A stretch of 64,000 nucleotides of DNA from Micromonospora sp. WMMD1102 (GTDB taxonomy: Bacteria > Actinomycetota > Actinomycetes > Mycobacteriales > Micromonosporaceae). The position numbers and the translations under genes were made by a program. Shown here one piece after another: positions 25,404-48,390 of the stretch. Position 1 is the stretch's first letter, and each line of letters starts with the position of its first letter. Location: positions 1,240,001 to 1,304,000 of the forward strand of contig NZ_JARUBN010000001.1 in NCBI RefSeq assembly GCF_029626265.1, written 5' to 3'. The notes beneath the pieces are model-generated. The model made no database searches. It was given only the letters and a program-made list of their open reading frames with translations, and was not told the origin of the DNA.

Positions 25404-26330
25404 GTGAAGGTGTGGATACCCCATCCCGTCGGACTGGAGCTGCTCGGCGAGATCCCGGCCGGGGTCACCGTCGAGGTCGCCCCGACGCCGGAGCAGTTTC
25501 CGTCCGACCCGGCCGGCGTCCGGTTCTGGGTGCCGCCGTTCCTCGCCCAGACCGCCGCCGTGCCGATGGCCGCCAAGCTGCCCGACCTGCGGGTGGTGCA
25601 GCTCCTCTCGGCCGGGGCGGACGTCTGGGTCGGCCGGCTGCCCGAGCACGTCACCCTCTGCGACGGGCGCGGGGTGCACGACTCCTCCACCGCGGAGTGG
25701 GTGGTCGCGGCGACCCTGGCGTACCTGCGGTCGTTCCCGGTCTTCGCGCTCGCCCAGGCCCGCCACGAGTGGTCGTACGACCGGGTCAACCCCACCGACG
25801 AACTGGCCGGCAAGCGGGTACTCGTCGTCGGCGCCGGATCGATCGGAGCGGCCACCCGGGCCCGGCTGGCGCCGTTCGAGGTCGAGCTGACCATGGTCGC
25901 CCGGACCGCCCGTCCCGCCGAGGGGGTGTACGCGGTCGACGACCTGCCGGCGCTGCTGCCCGAGGCGGACGTGGTGGTGCTGCTGGTGCCGCTCACCGAC
26001 GCTACCCGGGGACTGGTCGACGCCGGGTTCCTCGCCGCGATGCGGGACGGCGCGCTGCTGGTCAACGCCGCCCGGGGGCCGGTGGTGGAAACCGAGGCGC
26101 TTGTCGCCGAGCTGGTGACCGGCCGGCTCTCGGCGGCGCTGGACGTCACCGAGCCGGAGCCGCTGCCGGCCGGGCACCCGCTCTGGGACCTGCCCAACGT
26201 GCTGCTCACCCCGCACGTCGGCGGCTCGGTACGCGGCCTGCTGCCCCGGGGCTACCGGCTGGCCGGCCAGCAGTTGCGCCGTTTCGTGGCCGGCGAGCCG
26301 CTGGTCAACGTGGTGGTCGACGGCTACTGA
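25404..26330 (+). CDS. D-isomer-specific 2-hydroxyacid dehydrogenase
   Basis: The 308-residue enzyme would interconvert a 2-hydroxyacid and 2-ketoacid with NAD(P)H. The nucleotide-binding motif is VVGAGSIG, near residue 140. The catalytic Arg is in NAARGPVV, the Glu in VTEPEPLPAGHPLW and the His in LTPHVGG, in the correct order. HDSSTAEWVVAATLAYLR is the conserved helix. The GTG start at 25404 gives MKVWIPHPVG; no strong ribosome-binding site is present, so the message may be leaderless or the start weak. Substrate is unknown; the family includes phosphoglycerate, lactate and glyoxylate enzymes. Confidence 0.9.
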   Translation: MKVWIPHPVGLELLGEIPAGVTVEVAPTPEQFPSDPAGVRFWVPPFLAQTAAVPMAAKLPDLRVVQLLSAGADVWVGRLPEHVTLCDGRGVHDSSTAEWVVAATLAYLRSFPVFALAQARHEWSYDRVNPTDELAGKRVLVVGAGSIGAATRARLAPFEVELTMVARTARPAEGVYAVDDLPALLPEADVVVLLVPLTDATRGLVDAGFLAAMRDGALLVNAARGPVVETEALVAELVTGRLSAALDVTEPEPLPAGHPLWDLPNVLLTPHVGGSVRGLLPRGYRLAGQQLRRFVAGEPLVNVVVDGY

Positions 26331-26397
26331 CCGGCAGCCGGGCCGGCCGGGTCGGCAGCCGACGGCTCCGGGCCGCCAGCCGGCCGACGCCCGTTCG

Positions 26398-36226: not shown

Positions 36227-36672
36227 CAGCCGATGATCCCACTACGGTCACAGCGGCGAAGCCGTGTGGCGTGGCATCGGCGTCGCTGGGTGGACGGCCC
36301 GGCTGAACAGATTAGCGGCCCGGCGGCGGGGTGGGGATGGTCGGTGCGGAGACTGTCGAGCTGGGTGCACAGGCGGGGCAGCTCGACAGTCTCCCCGGCG
36401 ACAATCCCCCCGCACCCGACCCGGCGTCAGATCACCGGCTCGGAACTGCCTGGAAGCACCGGGTCACCCGATCAACCTGCAAAGACAGCCAGGAGCGACT
36501 GACGATCTCAGTTGCCTCGGCGAGTAGCGCGTCGAGGTCCTCGTCTGTCGTCACCTCGTCGGTGGGCACCTTGTACGCGGCGACCTTGATCACGACACGT
36601 TACGGAAGAGACACCCGGCGTGGCGTTAGATTGATAGCATTCGTGCTTTCGGGGATCGGCGCATGGAGTGAC
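36227..36672. other. 446-base region with a gene remnant
   Basis: No intact gene is supported. The right half contains a minus-strand coding fragment related to the gene at 42775-43203 (separate entry). The remainder has no recognisable coding pattern. Confidence 0.6.
36492..36593 (-). pseudogene. C-terminal fragment homologous to the gene at 42775-43203
   Basis: On the minus strand this stretch encodes AAYKVPTDEVTTDEDLDALL followed by AEATEIVSRS. The gene at 42775-43203 ends with VTYKVLTDGKITDDELDALL followed by AEANAIASRS. The match is clear at both protein and DNA level. The rest of the gene is absent here and no stop follows the SRS end. It is a relic of a second copy in the same orientation, 6.2 kb away. 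Confidence 0.75.
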
Positions 36673-40541: not shown

Positions 40542-40982
40542 ATGACGCCTCCGCCCGCCTTTCCGGCAGCCGATTCCCAGTACGCGCCCGGCTCGCGCAT
40601 CCTGGTCCGGGACGAGGAATGGCTGGTCCGGACCGCCAGACCGGTCCGGGACGGCGTGATGATGGTGAAGGCCGTCGGGGTTTCCGAGTTCGTCCAGGAC
40701 GTCGAGGCGACGTTCTCCACCGAGCTGGAGACGGTCCAGGCGATGGTGCCGGAGGAGACCAGGCTGGTCCAGGACACCTCGGCACGGTTCCGGCGCAGCC
40801 GACTGTTCCTGGAGGCGGTGCTCCGGCGTACCCCGTTGGCGCAGTCGGAGCGCGGTCTGGCGCTGGCCGACCGGTTCCTGCTCGACCCGTTGACCTATCA
40901 GCAGCGGCCGGCGGAGCTGGCGTTGGCTGGGTTGCGGCCCCAGATCCTGTACTCAGCTCGAGATTCGCTGGAGGGAGCATGA
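40542..40982 (+). pseudogene. N-terminal stub of a SNF2/RapA-type helicase (DrmD-like)
   Basis: The 146-residue frame looks like the N-terminus of actinobacterial SNF2/RapA-type helicases such as DISARM DrmD. YAPGSRILVRDEEWLVR is followed by GVSEFV, then ETRLVQDTSARFRRSRLFLE and DPLTYQQRPAELAL. In full-length proteins the next segment is PRxLIADxVGLGKT, the Walker A region. Here it changes to PQILYSARDSLEGA and stops. The ATPase core of ~800 or more residues is therefore missing. The break coincides with the fall in GC content at about 40950. Assignment to DrmD rather than another SNF2 helicase is tentative. Confidence 0.65.
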
Positions 40983-41578
40983 ACGAGAATTCAGGCCTAC
41001 CCGAATTCTGGGAGGAGTTTTGTTCTCTAGGGCAGGAAGTTGACTACTTTGTGACCGCCCGGCTGTTTGACGGGACGCCTGCGGCGTGGCCTCTTGAACT
41101 CAACTACATCAAATGGCGGCATCTCGTTGCAAGCGAACTCGGCGTCGACCCGATGGCGGTCCAGCTAGTCGGAAGCGCCCGTCTGGGCTATTCGCTAAAC
41201 CCGAGGAAGAATTTCAGGAAGTTCCATGCAAGCTCGGACTTGGATATCGCGGTGATCTCACCGGAACTATTCGATCGAGCGTGGAGCGAGCTTCGAGAAA
41301 TAATTGATGACGAAATCTTCGCCAAGAATAAAACCTATCTCCGGAAGCTGGTGTTCGAAGAATGCATCGCCCTTGACGTAGTACTGCCTCGGCTGTCCTT
41401 CGGTGAGCGGTGGTCGCGGTCGAGAGACAGCTTCGTCCAAGACCTCGGGGAGACCTTTATAAACTGTGAAGTCAATTATCGACTATACCGCAATCACAAG
41501 TCGCTCAGAATCTATCAGGTGAAAAGTGTAGGAATCGCGCGAGATCGCGCGATTGAGGAGGGCGTGCATCGTGGCTGA
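40979..41578 (+). CDS. Polymerase-beta-type nucleotidyltransferase domain protein
   Basis: This 199-residue protein has the core nucleotidyltransferase signature. GS is at residues 65-66 in LVGSARLGYS, the SDLDIAV motif gives Asp87 and Asp89, and a third Asp133 lies in ALDVVLP. Such a triad transfers NMP to a protein, RNA or small molecule; MNT-type antitoxins and CD-NTases share the fold. No HEPN motif (Rx4-6H) is obvious. It overlaps the helicase stub stop (ATGA) and has GAGGGAG upstream. It also overlaps the DUF262 gene by 8 bases, so the two are coupled. Its codons are far richer in A and T than its neighbours, indicating transfer. The target is unknown. Confidence 0.72.
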   Translation: MNENSGLPEFWEEFCSLGQEVDYFVTARLFDGTPAAWPLELNYIKWRHLVASELGVDPMAVQLVGSARLGYSLNPRKNFRKFHASSDLDIAVISPELFDRAWSELREIIDDEIFAKNKTYLRKLVFEECIALDVVLPRLSFGERWSRSRDSFVQDLGETFINCEVNYRLYRNHKSLRIYQVKSVGIARDRAIEEGVHRG

Positions 41579-42683
41579 TCACGGGCTGAAGTTCGAGATT
41601 GAGTCAAAAACGGTAGCGGAGTTCCGGTCGCTGGACAAGTCCGGCGAGCTGATCCTCCGGCCTGAATACCAGCGTAAGGCCGTCTGGCCGGAACGTGCCA
41701 AGGTTTCTTTGATGGAGACCATCCTCCTCGGATATCCGATCCCGGAGATCTACCTCGCTTACGAAACGTCGCCCGAAGGGGAACAAACAGCTTCCGTCGT
41801 TGACGGCCAGCAGCGCCTCACCGCCTTGCTTGAGTTTATAAACAACAAATTTCCGCTGGATGGGCTAGAGGACGAAAAGCTGATCCAGAAGTTCGAGGGA
41901 AAGCTTTTCAAGGAACTTCCCGACGATGTGCGTCAAGAGTTCTTTCAATATCGCTTTCCGATTCGGCGCCTATCGAACCTTGCCGATCAGTTTGTGCGCG
42001 CAGTCTTCGCCCGAGTCAACAGGGTAAATATGGTGCTGACAGATCAAGAGCTCCGGAATGCCCTGTTGCCTGGCCCCTTCAACGAATTCCTCAAGGATTG
42101 TGTAGCCCACCCAATAAGTGTGGTTTCCGGAGTTTTCAGTGGTGAACGACGTAAACGAGGCGGTGACCTAGAGTTCTATGCTGAGGTCTTTGGCACCTGC
42201 ATCTTCGGGCTGTCCAACAAAAAGACCGAACTCGACGAACGCTATGATAAAATTTCCGAAGATTTCGAAGATTACCAGGATCGTTCAGTAGAGTTCCTTG
42301 CGTTACTGACGTTCCTTAGAAATACGCTCAAGTGGGGCGGCCGAACCAGATGGTCGAACATCGTCGATATGTTTACGCTGCTGCATGTTTCTTGGGAGCT
42401 ACGCGAGAAGCTCTGTAGTGCTGACTCGGTCCGGGCCGAGCAGATTCGGGAACTTCTGGATCTGTTTCAGCGCGCAGTTTCAGCCAGGAAGCGCAAGGGC
42501 GAGGACGAAGAGAGTGTCAGCCTCTCTGCATCGCTTTCGGGCACGCTCGAAATGGCGGTCGAGCAGGTTGATGAAGCTATCGAAGGGTATATGTCGGGTA
42601 TCCGCAACTCGTCCGACTTGGGGTCACGCCGAATTCGCTCCCGGCACCTGAGATCCATAGTTTCGAAGAAGCTCGAGAGCTGA
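41571..42683 (+). CDS. DUF262 (ParB/Srx-type) protein
   Basis: The 370-residue protein begins with the DUF262 core: PEYQRKAVWP at 31-40, the LLGYPIPEIYL segment and the catalytic-type DGQQR motif at 78-82. DUF262 domains bind or hydrolyse nucleotides or DNA and form the GmrS half of GmrSD type IV restriction enzymes, and are found in other defence genes. No DUF1524/HNH motif is visible in the C-terminal half, which is helical. GAGGAGG at 41556-41562 precedes the GTG at 41571. It is coupled to the nucleotidyltransferase and has similarly low GC. I infer a two-protein defence or toxin-antitoxin unit. Confidence 0.83.
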   Translation: MADHGLKFEIESKTVAEFRSLDKSGELILRPEYQRKAVWPERAKVSLMETILLGYPIPEIYLAYETSPEGEQTASVVDGQQRLTALLEFINNKFPLDGLEDEKLIQKFEGKLFKELPDDVRQEFFQYRFPIRRLSNLADQFVRAVFARVNRVNMVLTDQELRNALLPGPFNEFLKDCVAHPISVVSGVFSGERRKRGGDLEFYAEVFGTCIFGLSNKKTELDERYDKISEDFEDYQDRSVEFLALLTFLRNTLKWGGRTRWSNIVDMFTLLHVSWELREKLCSADSVRAEQIRELLDLFQRAVSARKRKGEDEESVSLSASLSGTLEMAVEQVDEAIEGYMSGIRNSSDLGSRRIRSRHLRSIVSKKLES

Positions 42684-42774
42684 CCGAACTGTTCCGTCTA
42701 AGCCTAGGGATGAAACTGCTGGAGCACTACCGTCACCGTTCGGTGTGAGCCAGTTCAAACTCCTGGGGGCGGAC

Positions 42775-43203
42775 CTAGGAACGACTCGCGATCGCATTTG
42801 CCTCGGCGAGCAGCGCGTCAAGTTCGTCGTCTGTGATCTTTCCGTCGGTCAGCACCTTGTAGGTGACCGCAGCCTGGATCTTTCCGATCGAACTCGGCTC
42901 GATGTTGTAGTCGGCGTCCGGGTCGATGTTGGCTCTGATGAGCGCCTCCGCGTCCTGAGCATCGATAGTGGGGGCATCGTCTGCCAGACCGGCCCGGAGG
43001 TCTGCGACGAACCTGATCACCTCTGCTGACGTTGCGTTCTCCCCGAAGCGTCGATCGACGGCAAGGAAGAAGAGCGCAGCCAGGAACCGAGGAAACCCGT
43101 CCCAACCCTCAGCGTCCAGTTGCGCTTCGATCCTCTCGTTGGCCTCGTTGTCACCCCTGACCAGGGTCCGGATGTAGGCTGCAAGCTCAGGTTTGGTCGT
43201 CAT
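42775..43203 (-). CDS. Uncharacterised acidic helical protein, last gene of a three-gene operon
   Basis: The 142-residue protein starts MTTKPELAAYIRTLVRG, contains FPRFLAALFFLAVDRRFGE and ends DDELDALLAEANAIASRS. I do not recognise a named family. The pattern is all-helical with acidic loops. The ATG at 43203 lies inside the end of the upstream gene, an overlap of 17 bases. A fragment of a second copy lies at 36492-36593. It is convergent with the DUF262 gene 91 bases away. Confidence 0.72.
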   Translation of the reverse strand: MTTKPELAAYIRTLVRGDNEANERIEAQLDAEGWDGFPRFLAALFFLAVDRRFGENATSAEVIRFVADLRAGLADDAPTIDAQDAEALIRANIDPDADYNIEPSSIGKIQAAVTYKVLTDGKITDDELDALLAEANAIASRS

Positions 43204-43836
43204 CTCTCGTTTTCTCTCGCTGCTTCCTGACGCTGTTCCAAACCGACTTGGCCGCGACGGCAACCGCGCCAGTGGCCATGATGGCTGCTGTCACGGGGTT
43301 GTCGATCTGTGGGCGTTCCTGCGACTGAGGCGGTTTCGGGGGAGCCGTGCCGGCAGATGTCGTCCCCGAGGGGCCGTGCTGCTGCCGAAAGTACTTCAGG
43401 ACCGCCTTCCCGCCATCCTCGACCTGCTTCAAAGTGGACTCGTGGTCCTCGGCCTTCTGCATCTGCTTGCGCCAGATGATGTCTGCTTTGCGTCCCCGTC
43501 GTCCAGCTTCGTCCAGGAGACGTTCATCCGAGGGCATCTCGGTGTCCTGCACCTCGTCGTCCGACGCTGAGCCAGGGGCAATTCGGTTCGAATATGCGGC
43601 GAAGCGTGCTCTGGCCTCCGTCAACAGGCGGGCTGTCCTGGCAGCCTTCTCGCTGGCCGTCCGGATGTCGGTGATCGCTTCATGCATCTGGGGATGGTCA
43701 CAGCCCGATGCTCGGAGTACCGCTGGCGAGCCTGTTTGGCGTCGGCTTCGGCGCGCATCGCGGTGACCGCCGTGGCGGCGAGTCGTTCCCGCACCGCTTG
43801 CAGTTCGGCCACGATGTCGGCGATGGAGCTGGTCAT
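43187..43836 (-). pseudogene. Coiled-coil protein gene with a probable frameshift
   Basis: From the ATG at 43836 about 42 residues read as a regular coiled coil (TSSIADIVAELQAVRERLAA). The coding character then moves to another frame, which carries on from about 43705 with GCDHPQMHEAITDIRTASEK and runs to 43187. The second part is a Lys/Glu-rich helix, a Pro-rich linker and a hydrophobic AAIMATGAVAVAAKSVW segment. One base appears to be missing near 43705-43712. The protein may be lost, or made by frameshifting. The gene overlaps both neighbours, so it is part of one operon. Confidence 0.6.
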
Positions 43837-44093
43837 CCGAGCGTCGCGAGGTAGGCATCGGCGTGCTCAACTGCCGCGTCGATGCGGCGTACAGTCAGGT
43901 CGACCTCTCGGCCGAAGTCCTCCAGAATCTTCAAGCCGGCCTGGGCGTCGTCATCCTGGCTGTCGTGCACGGTGAGACGGGCGAGCTGTTCTGCCTCAGC
44001 GGCCTCTGTGCCCACCGTGACCAGGATTTTCTTGGCTTCCTCTGCAGCCAGAGATCCCTGGCGGATCGTCCGCTTGACCTCGTCGATGTTCAC
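43833..44093 (-). CDS. Small helical protein, first gene of the coiled-coil operon
   Basis: The 86-residue all-helical protein begins NIDEVKRTIRQGSLAAEEAK and has ILEDFGREVDLTVRRIDAAV near the end. It has no known domain, but size and heptad spacing suggest it packs with the next coiled-coil product. The GTG at 44093 has AGGGGCG upstream. Its stop overlaps the next ATG (ATGA). Confidence 0.65.
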   Translation of the reverse strand: MNIDEVKRTIRQGSLAAEEAKKILVTVGTEAAEAEQLARLTVHDSQDDDAQAGLKILEDFGREVDLTVRRIDAAVEHADAYLATLG

Positions 44094-44396
44094 AGCATCG
44101 CCCCTGATCAGGCCAGCACGCTTGCACACGCACGGGCGGCGCTCGCGCTGCCCCGGACAAGGGCGATGGGCTGTGCGTGTATGCTTTCGGCTCCCTCGGC
44201 CCTGGGCATTCGGTGTCCTCCCCGGTCGCCAGACGACGGCGGTGCGCGCAGACACGCGGGAGGTGTCGGGTTACCGCCGCGTGGTCGATCGAACACTAAC
44301 CGAAGGGACCGGCGAGAGCAGCCCCGGAAACGGAGGTCTCATTGCCTGAAAGACGACGGACGCAGTCCCCTGGCCAGGATTCCGGGCCGCTGTTGG
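44094..44396. other. 303-base spacer between the coiled-coil operon and the DUF397 gene
   Basis: No gene is supported. The part nearest 44094 carries the ribosome-binding site of the operon. The operon promoter is expected here; a CATACA-like -10 hexamer lies on the minus strand around 44177 but has no clear -35 partner. Confidence 0.4.
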
Positions 44397-44597
44397 TCAG
44401 CGCTGGCCGGGCAGGAGGGTGGCGACGAAGCCGGACCAGGCTGGGCCGGTGAAGGCGAGGATCGGTCCGCCGAGGTCCTTCGAGTCGCGTACGGCCACAG
44501 CCCCGCCCGCGTACCGCACCTCGACGCAGGCGGCGTTGTTCGCACTGCGGGACGACTTGAACCAGTCCTGTTCAGGAGTGTGCTCGATGGGGGTCAC
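44397..44597 (-). CDS. DUF397 protein
   Basis: The 66-residue protein has the DUF397 pattern FKSSRSANNAACVEVRYAGG followed by VAVRDSKDLGGPILAF. Such proteins are encoded next to XRE/DUF5753 regulators in actinomycetes and modulate them, as seen for WhiJ-type regulators in development. The GTG start overlaps the regulator stop (GTGA), so the two are coupled. Confidence 0.93.
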   Translation of the reverse strand: MTPIEHTPEQDWFKSSRSANNAACVEVRYAGGAVAVRDSKDLGGPILAFTGPAWSGFVATLLPGQR

Positions 44598-45505
44598 GTC
44601 ATCTCCTTGGCGATCCGCCGGATCAACGCCAGCGACTCGTCCGAGCTTAACGCGCGCTCCAGCGTCTCCTCGAAGGTGACCACGTAGTCGGCCACCCGGC
44701 CCGACTGGTCGATGATGTCACTGGAGGTCAGGATCTCCTGCCAGACCAGCTCGGGCAGCCGAGGCGAGGGGAAGGAGAGGATCTGGAACGGTCCACCGAG
44801 CGCGGGATAGGCGCCTGCGGTGAACGGCACGATCCTGATCTGGATCTGCTCCGGCCGCTTGGTGACCAGCGTGGCGAGATGTTGGAGCTGGTCCCGCATC
44901 ACAGCCGGTCCGCCGACTTGCTGCCGAAGCACACCCTCGCCGAGCACGGCGATGAGGGTGAGCGGGTTATCCCCGGTCAGTCGCGTCTGCCGAGCCATCC
45001 GGACCGCAATCCGCCGGTTGACCTCGGTGAGCCGAACGTAGGTGTTGCCGCCACGCATGATCGCGCGGGCGTACGCCTCGGTCTGCAACAGGCCGTCGAT
45101 TACGTCGCTCTGGTAGCTGCGGACATGGTCAGCGCCGGCTTCGTAGCCGAGGAACCGGAGGAACTCGGCGGGGAAGAGCTGAGAATACTGGTGCCACCAG
45201 GCACGCTTGGTCGACGATTCCCGTAGCTGCTCAAGCTCTGCCGCGTCGTCGGGCTCGATCTCGTAGACCTGCACGAGCTGGGCCAGGCGGTCGGCGGGCA
45301 GCTTGACCTTGCCTGCCTCCACACCCGACACGTACGCCTGGGCGATGCCCGTGGCCCGACCCGCAGCCACGGCCGTCATGCCCAGTTCCTCGCGGCGCTC
45401 GCGCAACCGGAGTCCGAGCTCCCACGCCTGCACGGTCGGCGACTCCAGCGGGCTTGGCTTCGCCCGACGGGACTTCGACGCCCCCGACGACTTGGCGCTC
45501 ACCAT
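44594..45505 (-). CDS. XRE-family regulator with DUF5753 sensor domain
   Basis: The 303-residue protein has an N-terminal helix-turn-helix (LRERREELGMTAVAAGRATG, then AYVSGVEAGKVKLPADRL). The ~190-residue DUF5753 domain begins around FLRFLGYEAGADHVRSYQS and includes PGLLQTE-like DGLLQTEAYARAI. It pairs with DUF397. AAGGAGG directly precedes the ATG at 45505. A TACTAT -10-like box lies at 45534-45539 on this strand. GAGGATGA direct repeats further upstream (about 45553-45580) could be its binding sites. Confidence 0.92.
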   Translation of the reverse strand: MVSAKSSGASKSRRAKPSPLESPTVQAWELGLRLRERREELGMTAVAAGRATGIAQAYVSGVEAGKVKLPADRLAQLVQVYEIEPDDAAELEQLRESSTKRAWWHQYSQLFPAEFLRFLGYEAGADHVRSYQSDVIDGLLQTEAYARAIMRGGNTYVRLTEVNRRIAVRMARQTRLTGDNPLTLIAVLGEGVLRQQVGGPAVMRDQLQHLATLVTKRPEQIQIRIVPFTAGAYPALGGPFQILSFPSPRLPELVWQEILTSSDIIDQSGRVADYVVTFEETLERALSSDESLALIRRIAKEMT

Positions 45506-45850
45506 GACTCCTCCTTCGAGAACGCTGAGGAAGATAGTACGGGAAACCCGCCAACTCATCCTCTTGATATAAACGCGATCATCCTCAATGCTAGTCACTA
45601 CAGGTCAGTGACCACTTGGTAACGCAACTGTCCCTGAGATTGCTTGTCGATTCTGGAGTCGCTTCACCTGGGCGGGGCGGCCAGCTCAAACGAGTTGTCC
45701 GTCCCGGCTTCTGAGTCACGCCCTGCTGCCGTATGTGTAGCCGCGCCTGCGGCGGTGGGGCGGGGTGGCCGCGGTCTGGGGTAGGGCAACCCGAAGGTCG
45801 GGCTGGGGCCACCCACCCACGTCCTGTTTCCGAGAGGCTGGTGAGAGGTC
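45506..45850. other. 345-base divergent region between the XRE gene and the DivIVA gene
   Basis: No gene is supported. The left end is AT-richer than average and holds the XRE promoter (minus-strand TACTAT at 45534-45539) and two GAGGATGA copies. The right end contains the GAGAGG ribosome-binding site of the DivIVA gene. The middle has G-rich runs (GGGGCGGGGTGG around 45757). Confidence 0.5.
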
Positions 45851-46177
45851 ATGCGTGCTCTGCTTCGATGGTTGTTCCGGCAGAAGGCCCGGGAGGGGCA
45901 GCCGCTACGGCGGCTCAGCTCGGCGTACCGGTCGGTGGCGTACCGGCCGTTGTGGCCATCGCAGGTGCGGCTGCGCCGGTTCACCCCGGTCGGCTTCGGT
46001 CGGCGGGGAGTCGATCCGGCCGAGGTGTCGGAGTTCCTTGACCAGGTCGCCGGTGACCTGGCCAGGGCGTACGCCGAATTGGCCAGCGCCCGGGAGCAGA
46101 ACGCCCGGATCAAGGACGCGTTGCGGCGGTGGCAGTCCCGGCAGGTGTCGACGGCGCACGGGTTGGCCCGGCGCTGA
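45851..46177 (+). CDS. DivIVA-domain protein
   Basis: The 108-residue protein has a basic N-terminus and then a DivIVA start (RRFTPVGFGRRGVDPAEVSE) that folds as a short crossed loop on the membrane and a coiled coil. The following helix is AYAELASAREQNARIKDALR. It lacks the long tail of Wag31, so it is a small variant. Its stop overlaps the ATG of the next gene (TGATG), indicating a coupled partner. Confidence 0.85.
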   Translation: MRALLRWLFRQKAREGQPLRRLSSAYRSVAYRPLWPSQVRLRRFTPVGFGRRGVDPAEVSEFLDQVAGDLARAYAELASAREQNARIKDALRRWQSRQVSTAHGLARR

Positions 46178-48390
46178 TGGCCGGACCCTCGGTGGTGCAG
46201 TGCCGGTCGTGTGACGGCCTCTCCTTCACCCTCGACCCGTGCCGCTGCACCTACGGCGGCAACCGCCTCCTGGTCGCCGAAAGCGACAGCGAGTCGGCCC
46301 GACGGTCGGCGGGGGAGGCGTACCAGGACTGCCTGGAGTGTCAGGGCGTCGGCACGGTCGGCCGGCCCTGCCATGACTGCGGGCAGACCGGGCGGCGCCG
46401 AGCCCAACTCGTCCTCACGATGGCAAACCTGGACACCGGGGCGGTGGCCTCGGCGAACGTCGTACCCGGGGTGGTGGAACCCGCGCCCTGGCCCGGCGAC
46501 GGCGGTGGGAGCTGGCATCTGCCGCTCGCCCCGCTGCTCCGCGACCTGGCCGCCGCCGTCGGTGTCGGCGCCGGCTCGTGGACGGACGTCCGCCAGCCCG
46601 GTGACCCGGACGGCCCGCTCGTCTTCCTGCCCCGCGCCTGGCGTCCGGAGCACTCGGCGACGGTCCGGGAGGTGCTGGAGGCCGAGGCGATCGCCGGGGA
46701 GAGCACCGACGCGTGGCGGCTCTATCTCGGCCGGTCAACGGTCGCGCCGCCGCGGGAGGCGCCGGCCGAGCTGGGCCGGCTCTGCCGGCTGGCCGACCTG
46801 CTCTGCCTGGATCTGGTGGTCGAGGCCCGCCGCCTGATCGCCACGGCCGGGCTGACCTGGGCGATCCGCTTCGAGGTGCCGGGCGGGCCGGTGCCGTCCG
46901 AGGCCCGGGGCTATGCCGACGACCTGACCACCGCGATCGGCACCACGACAGTCCTCGACGCCTGCGACGGGCTGGAGGAGCGCGGCCAGACCGCCCCCGC
47001 CCACCATGTGACCCTCGGACAGCCGCCACCCGACCCACCCACGATCGACCTGGACCAGCTCGAACGGCGGATCCTCGCCGACTGTCTCGACCTGGCCACC
47101 GGCGACCCGACCGCCGGGGCGCAGGCGATCTGGCGGGACGGCCGCTGGTGGCACACCAGCCTGCGTACCGCCGGGACCTCGGAAACCCTCACCGAGTGGT
47201 CGACCGGGCAGATCTACAGCCGGCGTGCGACGAAGCTGCGCCGGGGCTGGCAGCCGCCGGCACCGTCGTGGCAGGACTCGCCCATCCCGTACGTCGACTG
47301 CTCCGACTGCGACCCGCACAGTCGACTCCGCCGCTGCGACTGTCGACTCGGCACCGACCGGGCCGATCCTGACTGCCCGAAGTGTGCCGGCTCCGGGCGC
47401 AGCCCGTCACTGCTGCGCTGCTACACCTGCCGGGGCACCCGCCGGCTCCACTCCGAGGCGGCGATCACGATCACCGACCTCGCCGGCCGGGTCGTACACC
47501 TCAGTTGGCGCAGCGACGCGGCCGGCTGGCGTACCGGTGAATTCGCCTGGCGGGACGACCCCGCCGACCACCAGTCCGATCGCGCCGGATCCGGCGGCGA
47601 CGGCCGGGTCCGGCCGGTGGGGGAGGAGACCTGGCGGACCGGCAATCAGGTGCCGGCACCGCAGGTGGCAACCCACCCCGGCGGCAAGCCGCTGCACCAG
47701 CTTCCCGACCACTTCCGGCTCGCCGGCTGGGCCGACCACTTCGGCGTACGCCCGGAGGACCTGGTCGAACTCGACGGCGGCGGCAGCCTCGACCACAGTC
47801 TCCGGGACGGCACCGTCACCCTGCACCGGCCCGACGCCGACCCGCTCACCGAATATCTGCGCTGGGCCGCCCGGGGCCGACCCGGCGGCCGGCTCCTCGT
47901 GCTGGCCCGCCGGCCCGACGTGCCGCCGCTGGCCGACCTGGTCCGGCTCGTCCTCGGGCTGCGCCTGACGGTCACGATCACCCTCGTCGACCACATCCGC
48001 AATGCCGGCGACCTGCGCCTCATCCAGGGCGAGAGCTGGGACGTCACAATCGACCCCCTCGGCCGGCTGCCCACACCGGCCGACCCGCCCACCTATTCCA
48101 CCCCGGAAGCCGCGACCGCGCACTGCCTCGAATATCTCGAACTCGCCATCGCCGGCAACGTCCCCGACAACCCCGACCAGCAGATCCCGGTGCCGCAGAC
48201 CCCGACCCCGATCGCGGTCGACGACCCGATTCCACTACTCCGCCGGCTCGCCCGCCATCACCCCGGGCAGTCGGTAGCCGTCCACTACGACGGCACAACC
48301 TGCCACATCTGGCTCCGCGAACGCGACGACGTACGCCAGCTCGCCACCGCGCCCACCCTCCCCGCCGCCATCGGCGCCCTCGGTCTCTGA
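46177..48390 (+). CDS. Large uncharacterised protein with DnaJ-type zinc-finger clusters
   Basis: I do not recognise a named family for this 737-residue protein. The N-terminus has CRSCDG, CRC, CLECQGVGTV and CHDCGQTG clusters, in the CxxCxGxG style of the DnaJ central zinc domain. A second cluster at about 370-430 has CSDCD, CDC, CPKCAGSG and CYTCRGT. Between and after these are alpha/beta segments with no catalytic motif I can name. The C-terminal third ends with a small beta-rich domain. It is coupled to the DivIVA gene, so it may act at the cell pole or septum. Metal binding is very likely, chaperone activity is not shown. Confidence 0.7.
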   Translation: MAGPSVVQCRSCDGLSFTLDPCRCTYGGNRLLVAESDSESARRSAGEAYQDCLECQGVGTVGRPCHDCGQTGRRRAQLVLTMANLDTGAVASANVVPGVVEPAPWPGDGGGSWHLPLAPLLRDLAAAVGVGAGSWTDVRQPGDPDGPLVFLPRAWRPEHSATVREVLEAEAIAGESTDAWRLYLGRSTVAPPREAPAELGRLCRLADLLCLDLVVEARRLIATAGLTWAIRFEVPGGPVPSEARGYADDLTTAIGTTTVLDACDGLEERGQTAPAHHVTLGQPPPDPPTIDLDQLERRILADCLDLATGDPTAGAQAIWRDGRWWHTSLRTAGTSETLTEWSTGQIYSRRATKLRRGWQPPAPSWQDSPIPYVDCSDCDPHSRLRRCDCRLGTDRADPDCPKCAGSGRSPSLLRCYTCRGTRRLHSEAAITITDLAGRVVHLSWRSDAAGWRTGEFAWRDDPADHQSDRAGSGGDGRVRPVGEETWRTGNQVPAPQVATHPGGKPLHQLPDHFRLAGWADHFGVRPEDLVELDGGGSLDHSLRDGTVTLHRPDADPLTEYLRWAARGRPGGRLLVLARRPDVPPLADLVRLVLGLRLTVTITLVDHIRNAGDLRLIQGESWDVTIDPLGRLPTPADPPTYSTPEAATAHCLEYLELAIAGNVPDNPDQQIPVPQTPTPIAVDDPIPLLRRLARHHPGQSVAVHYDGTTCHIWLRERDDVRQLATAPTLPAAIGALGL

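Follow-up and report, generated by a model that had tools for sequence, protein, structure and literature searches.

The window analysed here, a stretch of 64,000 nucleotides from Micromonospora sp. WMMD1102 (GCF_029626265.1, contig NZ_JARUBN010000001.1, positions 1,240,001-1,304,000, forward strand), contains two coupled genes, the first encoding a minimal nucleotidyltransferase-like (NTase) protein and the second a GmrS-like protein with a DUF262 domain (Table 1). Judged from the genomic context, the pair very probably constitutes a defence module. The DUF262 protein is likely to be its sensor of DNA and nucleoside triphosphate (NTP), and the NTase is with even confidence its catalytic effector, of which the catalysis, target and trigger are proposed; the complete statement, in which the pair is a GmrSD-like anti-invader module with an NTase substituted for the HNH nuclease, is given the same balanced weight. 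The proposal of an earlier sequence-only reading, that the two genes are a candidate undescribed defence or toxin-antitoxin (TA) system, was supported by the analysis.

Conservation and joint inheritance of the two genes

The coupling noted in that reading was confirmed: the genes overlap by eight bases (41571-41578) and each stands behind a purine run resembling a ribosome-binding site, the GTG at 41571 being the start common to close DUF262 homologues (M[A/T]DHGLKF). Their visible richness in A and T was likewise borne out, the pair having 53.4% G+C against 71.8% for the window, whose G+C minimum falls at the pair. The low G+C content travels with the pair, since in ten actinobacterial relatives (L009-L016, L018, L019) it lies 10 to 22 points under the surroundings. 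The ratio of non-synonymous to synonymous substitution (dN/dS) against four relatives (L009-L012) lay between 0.05 and 0.10 in the NTase gene and between 0.07 and 0.13 in the DUF262 gene, which indicates purifying selection; in the comparison with L014 the synonymous sites were saturated. Besides the query, a protein search gave 79 NTase homologues at E<=1e-3 (80 in all). A chance or decaying pair of open reading frames is excluded by these homologues together with the constant gene order and the dN/dS values. No Rfam match was found around the locus.

Profile scans revealed at least 85 NTase loci, 80 in genomes and five on viral contigs, spread over several bacterial phyla, with one in a Lokiarchaeote. 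In 82 of the 85 loci listed the NTase gene is closely followed by a DUF262 frame of the same strand, whose start, by mechanical gene calls, falls between 157 bases ahead of the NTase end and 383 bases past it; at L039 and L064 this frame is in two pieces. The remaining three comprise a DUF262 tail behind a truncated NTase (L017), a contig ending inside the DUF262 gene (L027) and one locus without DUF262 (L087), and one fusion cluster (P0199) was found. In a sample of the phylum the NTase was present in 4 of 396 genomes and paired in all four. In a sample of the family of the window it was present in 10 of 300, each time paired, and the sole other match was a 45-residue fragment on a separate contig (G552, L151), unpaired in the stretch examined, where unpaired means in all sampled genomes the lack of a partner within about 1.5 kb. 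The pair is thus not confined to the window genome, a case that would have spoken against a system.

The DUF262 gene is more widespread than its partner. A protein search with it gave 385 matches, of which 120 were listed, and among the 300 family genomes it was found at E<=1e-20 in 44, at 49 places: ten paired, 20 others examined and unpaired, and, among the 19 remaining, the window genome's own two, which were checked and are also unpaired. The objection that DUF262 occurs mostly without the NTase therefore holds for the superfamily and fails for the subfamily of the window, whose ten best matches (288-377 bits) are the same ten NTase loci, followed by matches of 232, 210 and then at most 126 bits. 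Distances between NTases correlated with those between DUF262 proteins over 79 loci, a set defined by score thresholds (r 0.935). The phyla are intermixed in a quick DUF262 tree in which long branches were flagged, a pattern suggestive of joint transfer of the two genes from one lineage to another. No NTase match was obtained in phage records with three queries.

The two proteins

The DUF262 protein is GmrS/BrxU-like minus the HNH nuclease. It matches PF03235 (E 1.7e-22), and no DUF1524/HNH was detected among nine window proteins scanned with Pfam, the pair included, in agreement with the earlier description of a DUF262 head lacking an HNH partner domain. The structure model consists of a ParB/Srx-like N-terminal domain and an all-helical C-terminal domain without HNH; the latter shows no recognisable nuclease motif or fold, and no conserved endonuclease motif appears in the alignment. 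In this alignment of 67 members (63 of the 85 loci and four database proteins), the D, G, second Q and R of DGQQR are present in every sequence, the first Q in 66, and Tyr340 is near-invariant (66/67). Six members of Bacteroidota type, one of them on a viral contig (L061, L077, L079, L081, L082, L093), carry a conserved C-terminal extension of about 130 residues with NxRGDxRxWF, and at all six a C5 methyltransferase gene, or at L082 a fragment, lies within 150 bp. A B3-like DNA-binding character suspected for this extension was supported neither by Pfam (two of the six scanned) nor by a sequence search of the PDB, and was not used.

For the NTase, the alignment comprised 74 sequences, from 70 of the 85 loci and four database proteins. 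G65, S66, G70, S86, D87, D89 and A91 are invariant in it, which is partly built in because the scans used the patterns SDxDIA or VGSA..LGY; GS and SDxD are also kept in three plasmid NTases and one from Escherichia coli, all found without patterns. The AbiEii/MenT models of Pfam, a database that these NTases match poorly overall, gave no match for the window protein (E<=1) or the 74 members (E<=0.1). The NCBIfam MntA model was matched weakly by 12 of the 74. PADLOC likewise contained no convincing match for the 74; its CBASS cyclase models each matched at most two of them (best E 0.0085) and none the window protein.

Neighbouring genes and the insertion site

A DNA methyltransferase adjoins the pair at 36 of the 85 loci. 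By calls made with motifs and with home-made hidden Markov models from clusters containing the counted genes, a C5-cytosine methyltransferase gene lies within 150 bp at 32 loci (in 29 of them upstream and in the orientation of the pair, in two divergent, in one downstream) and a PF01555 methyltransferase within 500 bp at four; Pfam scans covered two of the 32 C5 genes (L077, L088) and three of the four PF01555 genes, and confirmed PF00145 or PF01555 in each. The C5 label changes at least seven times on the tree, the distances between C5 enzymes and between DUF262 proteins correlate at 0.92 over 30 loci, and Vsr occurs within 3 kb at ten of the 85 loci. At L009 a type I-like N6 methyltransferase stands about 0.5 kb upstream of the pair. 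Linked methyltransferases suggest that self DNA is marked in the lineages that have them. The window has no methyltransferase among nine proteins scanned, and its genome contains no PF00145 match and three PF01555 matches, all elsewhere.

The pair also occurs on mobile elements, among them the Pseudoalteromonas plasmid pTHAF3_a. It was found in one of 5,426 E. coli genomes (strain 1500, NZ_CP040269.1 3286-4880), where, with 32% G+C in an otherwise 53% stretch, it is flanked by the portal gene and the gene for the replication endonuclease in a prophage of the P2 family (gpA-gpQ interval). This interval of P2 prophages is a hotspot of anti-phage systems according to the available part of PMC9122126. 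On the Aliarcobacter plasmid pM830MA (L108, 7818-10477) a distant NTase gene is followed by a DUF4365 gene matching the PADLOC model 'Aga_REase' (E 1e-10), with no DUF262 match; genes for a TIR-domain protein and a phospholipase D-like protein stand nearby.

Related DUF262 genes have other partners. RelA/SpoT-like genes (FEVQxxT...THDxVYK) lie downstream of related, lower-scoring DUF262 genes at L101 331-1332 (-), L162 497-1528 (-) and L163 318-1373 (-); the assignment is weak from single sequences and significant only as a three-sequence profile, which retrieves GTP pyrophosphokinases (best E 6.5e-4) and the RelA/SpoT-family structures 7ztb/9erv (E 7e-3). These loci may represent a DUF262-alarmone-synthetase defence pair. 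Four partner genes, labelled HEPN-like RNases by the motif RNxIAH alone, adjoin related DUF262 genes at L103-L105 and at L006, a locus of the window genome itself; a PDB search with them found nothing. L101 and L103-L105 stand on long branches near the window clade in the DUF262 tree, from which L162 and L163 were left out. Different toxin-type neighbours beside a constant DUF262 sensor make the NTase the likeliest effector of the present pair. Operons joining HEPN with ParB genes are reported in the portion available of PMC3710099. In the window genome, another DUF262 gene with its downstream HEPN-like (RNSIAH) gene occurs at G000:C1:7698299-7698739 (L006) and at G000:C8:17379-17819 (L007); the two DUF262 proteins are identical, so that contig 8 may be either a copy carried on a plasmid or a duplication from the assembly.

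In the window the pair follows a helicase gene stub, the stop codon of which overlaps the NTase start (ATGA). The stub matches the first 137 or so residues of frames of 951 and 1020 residues in the same-genus genomes G398 and G400 (88 and 84% identity), and DNA homology to both genomes is lost at window 40949, 30 bases short of the point where the NTase gene starts, which confirms that the pair sits on a severed helicase gene and occupies the place where most of a DrmD-like helicase would be expected. The suggested insertion into a defence locus was also supported: the G400 helicase matches PADLOC DrmD at E 5e-84 and is followed by a 1636-residue type IIG/DrmMI-like gene. On the far side of the pair, window 43530-44092 matches DNA (73% identity) that in G400 lies past this methyltransferase gene. 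Two further same-genus genomes, G401 and G396, have the outer flanks on both sides without the kinase-helicase-pair segment (about 36.5-42.7 kb), and the stretches fetched from them hold no NTase or DUF262 match. From these homologues and this absence, the site of the pair reads as a variable cassette site holding restriction-type genes in relatives.

An 85-base direct repeat, 80% identical (36491-36575 and 42777-42861), bounds about 6.3 kb comprising the kinase gene, the helicase stub and the pair. A protein of 753 residues with repeated CxxC pairs (46129-48390, plus strand) is conserved beside the site in same-genus genomes and has no PADLOC match. The window also contains a predicted tRNA-Ser gene (26288-26386, plus strand) with the unusual anticodon ACT.

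Table 1. Gene pair and adjoining features, in positions of the window
Feature	Position	Strand	Remarks
NTase-like gene (P0001)	40979-41578	+	Minimal nucleotidyltransferase-like; GSx3G...SDxDxA; ATG start; 199 aa
DUF262/GmrS-like gene (P0082)	41571-42683	+	QR...DGQQR...FxRxN; GTG start; 370 aa
GGAGGG, likely ribosome-binding site of NTase gene	40970-40975	+	Read from sequence
AGGAGG, likely ribosome-binding site of DUF262 gene	41556-41561	+	Read from sequence
DrmD-like SNF2/DEAD helicase gene stub	40542-40982	+	About 137 codons homologous, last 10 or so foreign
Right flank common to same-genus G401, no pair there	42749-46000		93% identity; includes small minus-strand genes 42775-43263 and 43187-43870

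Proposed mechanism and comparison with known systems

In GmrSD, BrxU and SspE the DUF262 domain binds NTP and regulates the nuclease, as stated in the parts available of PMC10952713 and PMC12137116. In the mechanism proposed for the pair, the DUF262 protein would bind NTP through QR/DGQQR/FxRxN and inspect DNA. Where a methyltransferase is linked it would respond to DNA without the methyl mark; in the lineage of the window, where no methyltransferase is linked and the genome has no C5-cytosine enzyme, its cue would be modified DNA or some different sign of an invader. Set free or switched on by this recognition, the NTase would add nucleotides to a target, possibly the 3' end of tRNA or a protein of host or phage, and so stop the infection, probably by growth arrest. 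One may speculate, at somewhat less than even confidence, that DUF262 proteins serve generally to inspect DNA and can be combined with various executioners (HNH nuclease, HEPN-like RNase, RelA/SpoT-like alarmone synthetase, minimal NTase), and that here foreign DNA triggers killing by the NTase and not cutting, self DNA being methyl-marked in some lineages. If this is true, methylation as a mark of self would act together with an enzyme that leaves DNA uncut, which would tie restriction-modification to abortive immunity by nucleotide transfer, and an NTase family whose members are mostly annotated as hypothetical would be explained; the E. coli prophage copy makes the proposal directly testable in laboratory strains.

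Several observations weigh against this mechanism. The full triad ascribed to the NTase by the sequence-only reading is present in the window protein (GS65-66, D87, D89, D133) and does not extend to the family, in which the third position, placed in a helix of the structure model, is D or E in only 41 of 74 members and K or R in 27; canonical NTase catalysis is therefore uncertain. The NTase fold that was to be predicted is weakly supported by the model: Foldseek gave no PDB match at E<=1e-3, and VIA-align, which compares only the families in its own list, had an MNT antitoxin in the top row and a best Z of 4.1, tied with an unrelated baseplate protein (4.0). Structure alignments of the DUF262 protein to BrxU and SspE had a root-mean-square deviation above 11 Å over about 295 residues. 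By the calls described, no methyltransferase is adjacent at 49 of the 85 loci, among them each of the ten fetched from the window clade, and the annotation shows none on the 6.2 kb Cronobacter plasmid pA84-3, which carries the pair. Some neighbours are of housekeeping type, namely IDH (L018), polA (L076), FimV (L066) and a monooxygenase (L067). The distant Aliarcobacter NTase adjoins a DUF4365 nuclease-like gene and not DUF262, so the NTase could be a regulatory part. Finally, in the portions available, PMC4619093 presents an older view giving GmrS an endonuclease role, and PMC12839542 cites nicking of DNA by ParB/Srx.

The last points belong to a rather unlikely but substantial alternative, a two-subunit restriction nuclease in which the DUF262 protein itself cuts or nicks DNA with its ParB/Srx-like domain, while the NTase-fold protein has no catalytic role and confers specificity by binding DNA or NTP. 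It would account for the third acid missing in many NTases and for the cytosine methyltransferases linked at 32 of 85 loci, and 63 of the 67 DUF262 members match a model that PADLOC labels as a type II restriction enzyme (best E 1.4e-18). Against it stand the GS and SDxD motifs, kept in all 74 NTases (partly by retrieval) and in the four found without patterns, and the all-helical C-terminal domain lacking a recognisable nuclease.

A TA pair is less probable still. The DUF262 protein would then be the toxin and the NTase an antitoxin silencing it by nucleotidylation, as MntA silences HepT, an arrangement favoured by the leading position of the NTase gene, the gene overlap, the near-invariant Tyr340, the MNT antitoxin at the top of VIA-align, the weak MntA matches and the occurrence on a 6.2 kb plasmid. 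Adjoining methyltransferases would be unexpected for a plain TA system, and the toxin-type genes (HEPN-like, RelA/SpoT-like) beside related DUF262 genes point to a toxin on the partner side; moreover, DUF262 is described elsewhere as an NTPase or sensor (PMC10952713 and PMC12137116, in part). Compared with HEPN-MNT (type VII) TA systems, the partner in the pair is DUF262 and not HEPN (84 of 85 loci, two partial), and the NTase is longer, 199 residues against 100-147 for the MNT chains in the structure comparison.

Returning to the anti-invader module with an NTase effector, the pair matches no complete named system in PADLOC. Among the systems close to it are Menshen (NsnABC) and PD-T4-2: all 67 DUF262 members match NsnA (best 6e-43; window protein E 1.4e-39) and PD-T4-2_A (best 3e-26). 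A divergent Menshen or PD-T4-2 with an overlooked further component is nevertheless very improbable. An ABC-type ATPase encoded next to the pair in L039 weakly matches NsnB over 28 residues (E 9.6e-4), whereas NsnB, NsnC and PD-T4-2_B, for which PADLOC presumably contains a model, are unmatched by the 74 NTases and by a set of seven window proteins with both members of the pair among them; in their place the pair has an NTase. Among the same seven proteins no CBASS Cap effector was found except a weak capH-like match of a helix-turn-helix protein (44594-45598, E 0.0022).

Among the papers retrieved on DUF262 or COG1479 in connection with nucleotidyltransferases, Menshen, PD-T4-2 or antiphage methyltransferases, and on restriction-modification with nucleotidyltransferase and ParB, no title or opening of an abstract describes the pair, the 2025 Menshen survey lying outside this scope; nor do the available parts of PMC12704722, PMC10952713, PMC3710099, PMC12409362, PMC4619093, PMC12707154, PMC9519451, PMC12137116, PMC8565348, PMC12839542 and PMC9122126. 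Within these bounds, as in the earlier reading, no named system made up of just these two genes came to light.

Like GmrSD and BrxU, the pair has a DUF262 domain with DGQQR, but these carry DUF262 and DUF1524, as does the phosphorothioate-sensing SspE, whereas the pair has no detected DUF1524/HNH, an NTase-like partner and often a linked cytosine methyltransferase. It resembles type II restriction-modification systems with C5 methyltransferase and Vsr in the upstream C5 gene on the same strand (29/85) and the nearby Vsr (10/85), and differs in that the window copy has no methyltransferase and that neither Pfam nor the conserved motifs revealed a restriction endonuclease in the pair, but 63 of the 67 DUF262 members match the type II model of PADLOC. 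TgvAB/GrwAB of Vibrio cholerae is likewise a two-protein DUF262-based defence needing both proteins, as far as the accessible text of PMC12409362 and PMC12137116 goes; in that system DUF262 is present in both proteins and DUF1524 in one. The DUF262 half is known, and the pair is apparently a variant of DUF262-based defence outside GmrSD, Menshen, PD-T4-2, CBASS, MenAT and HEPN-MNT.
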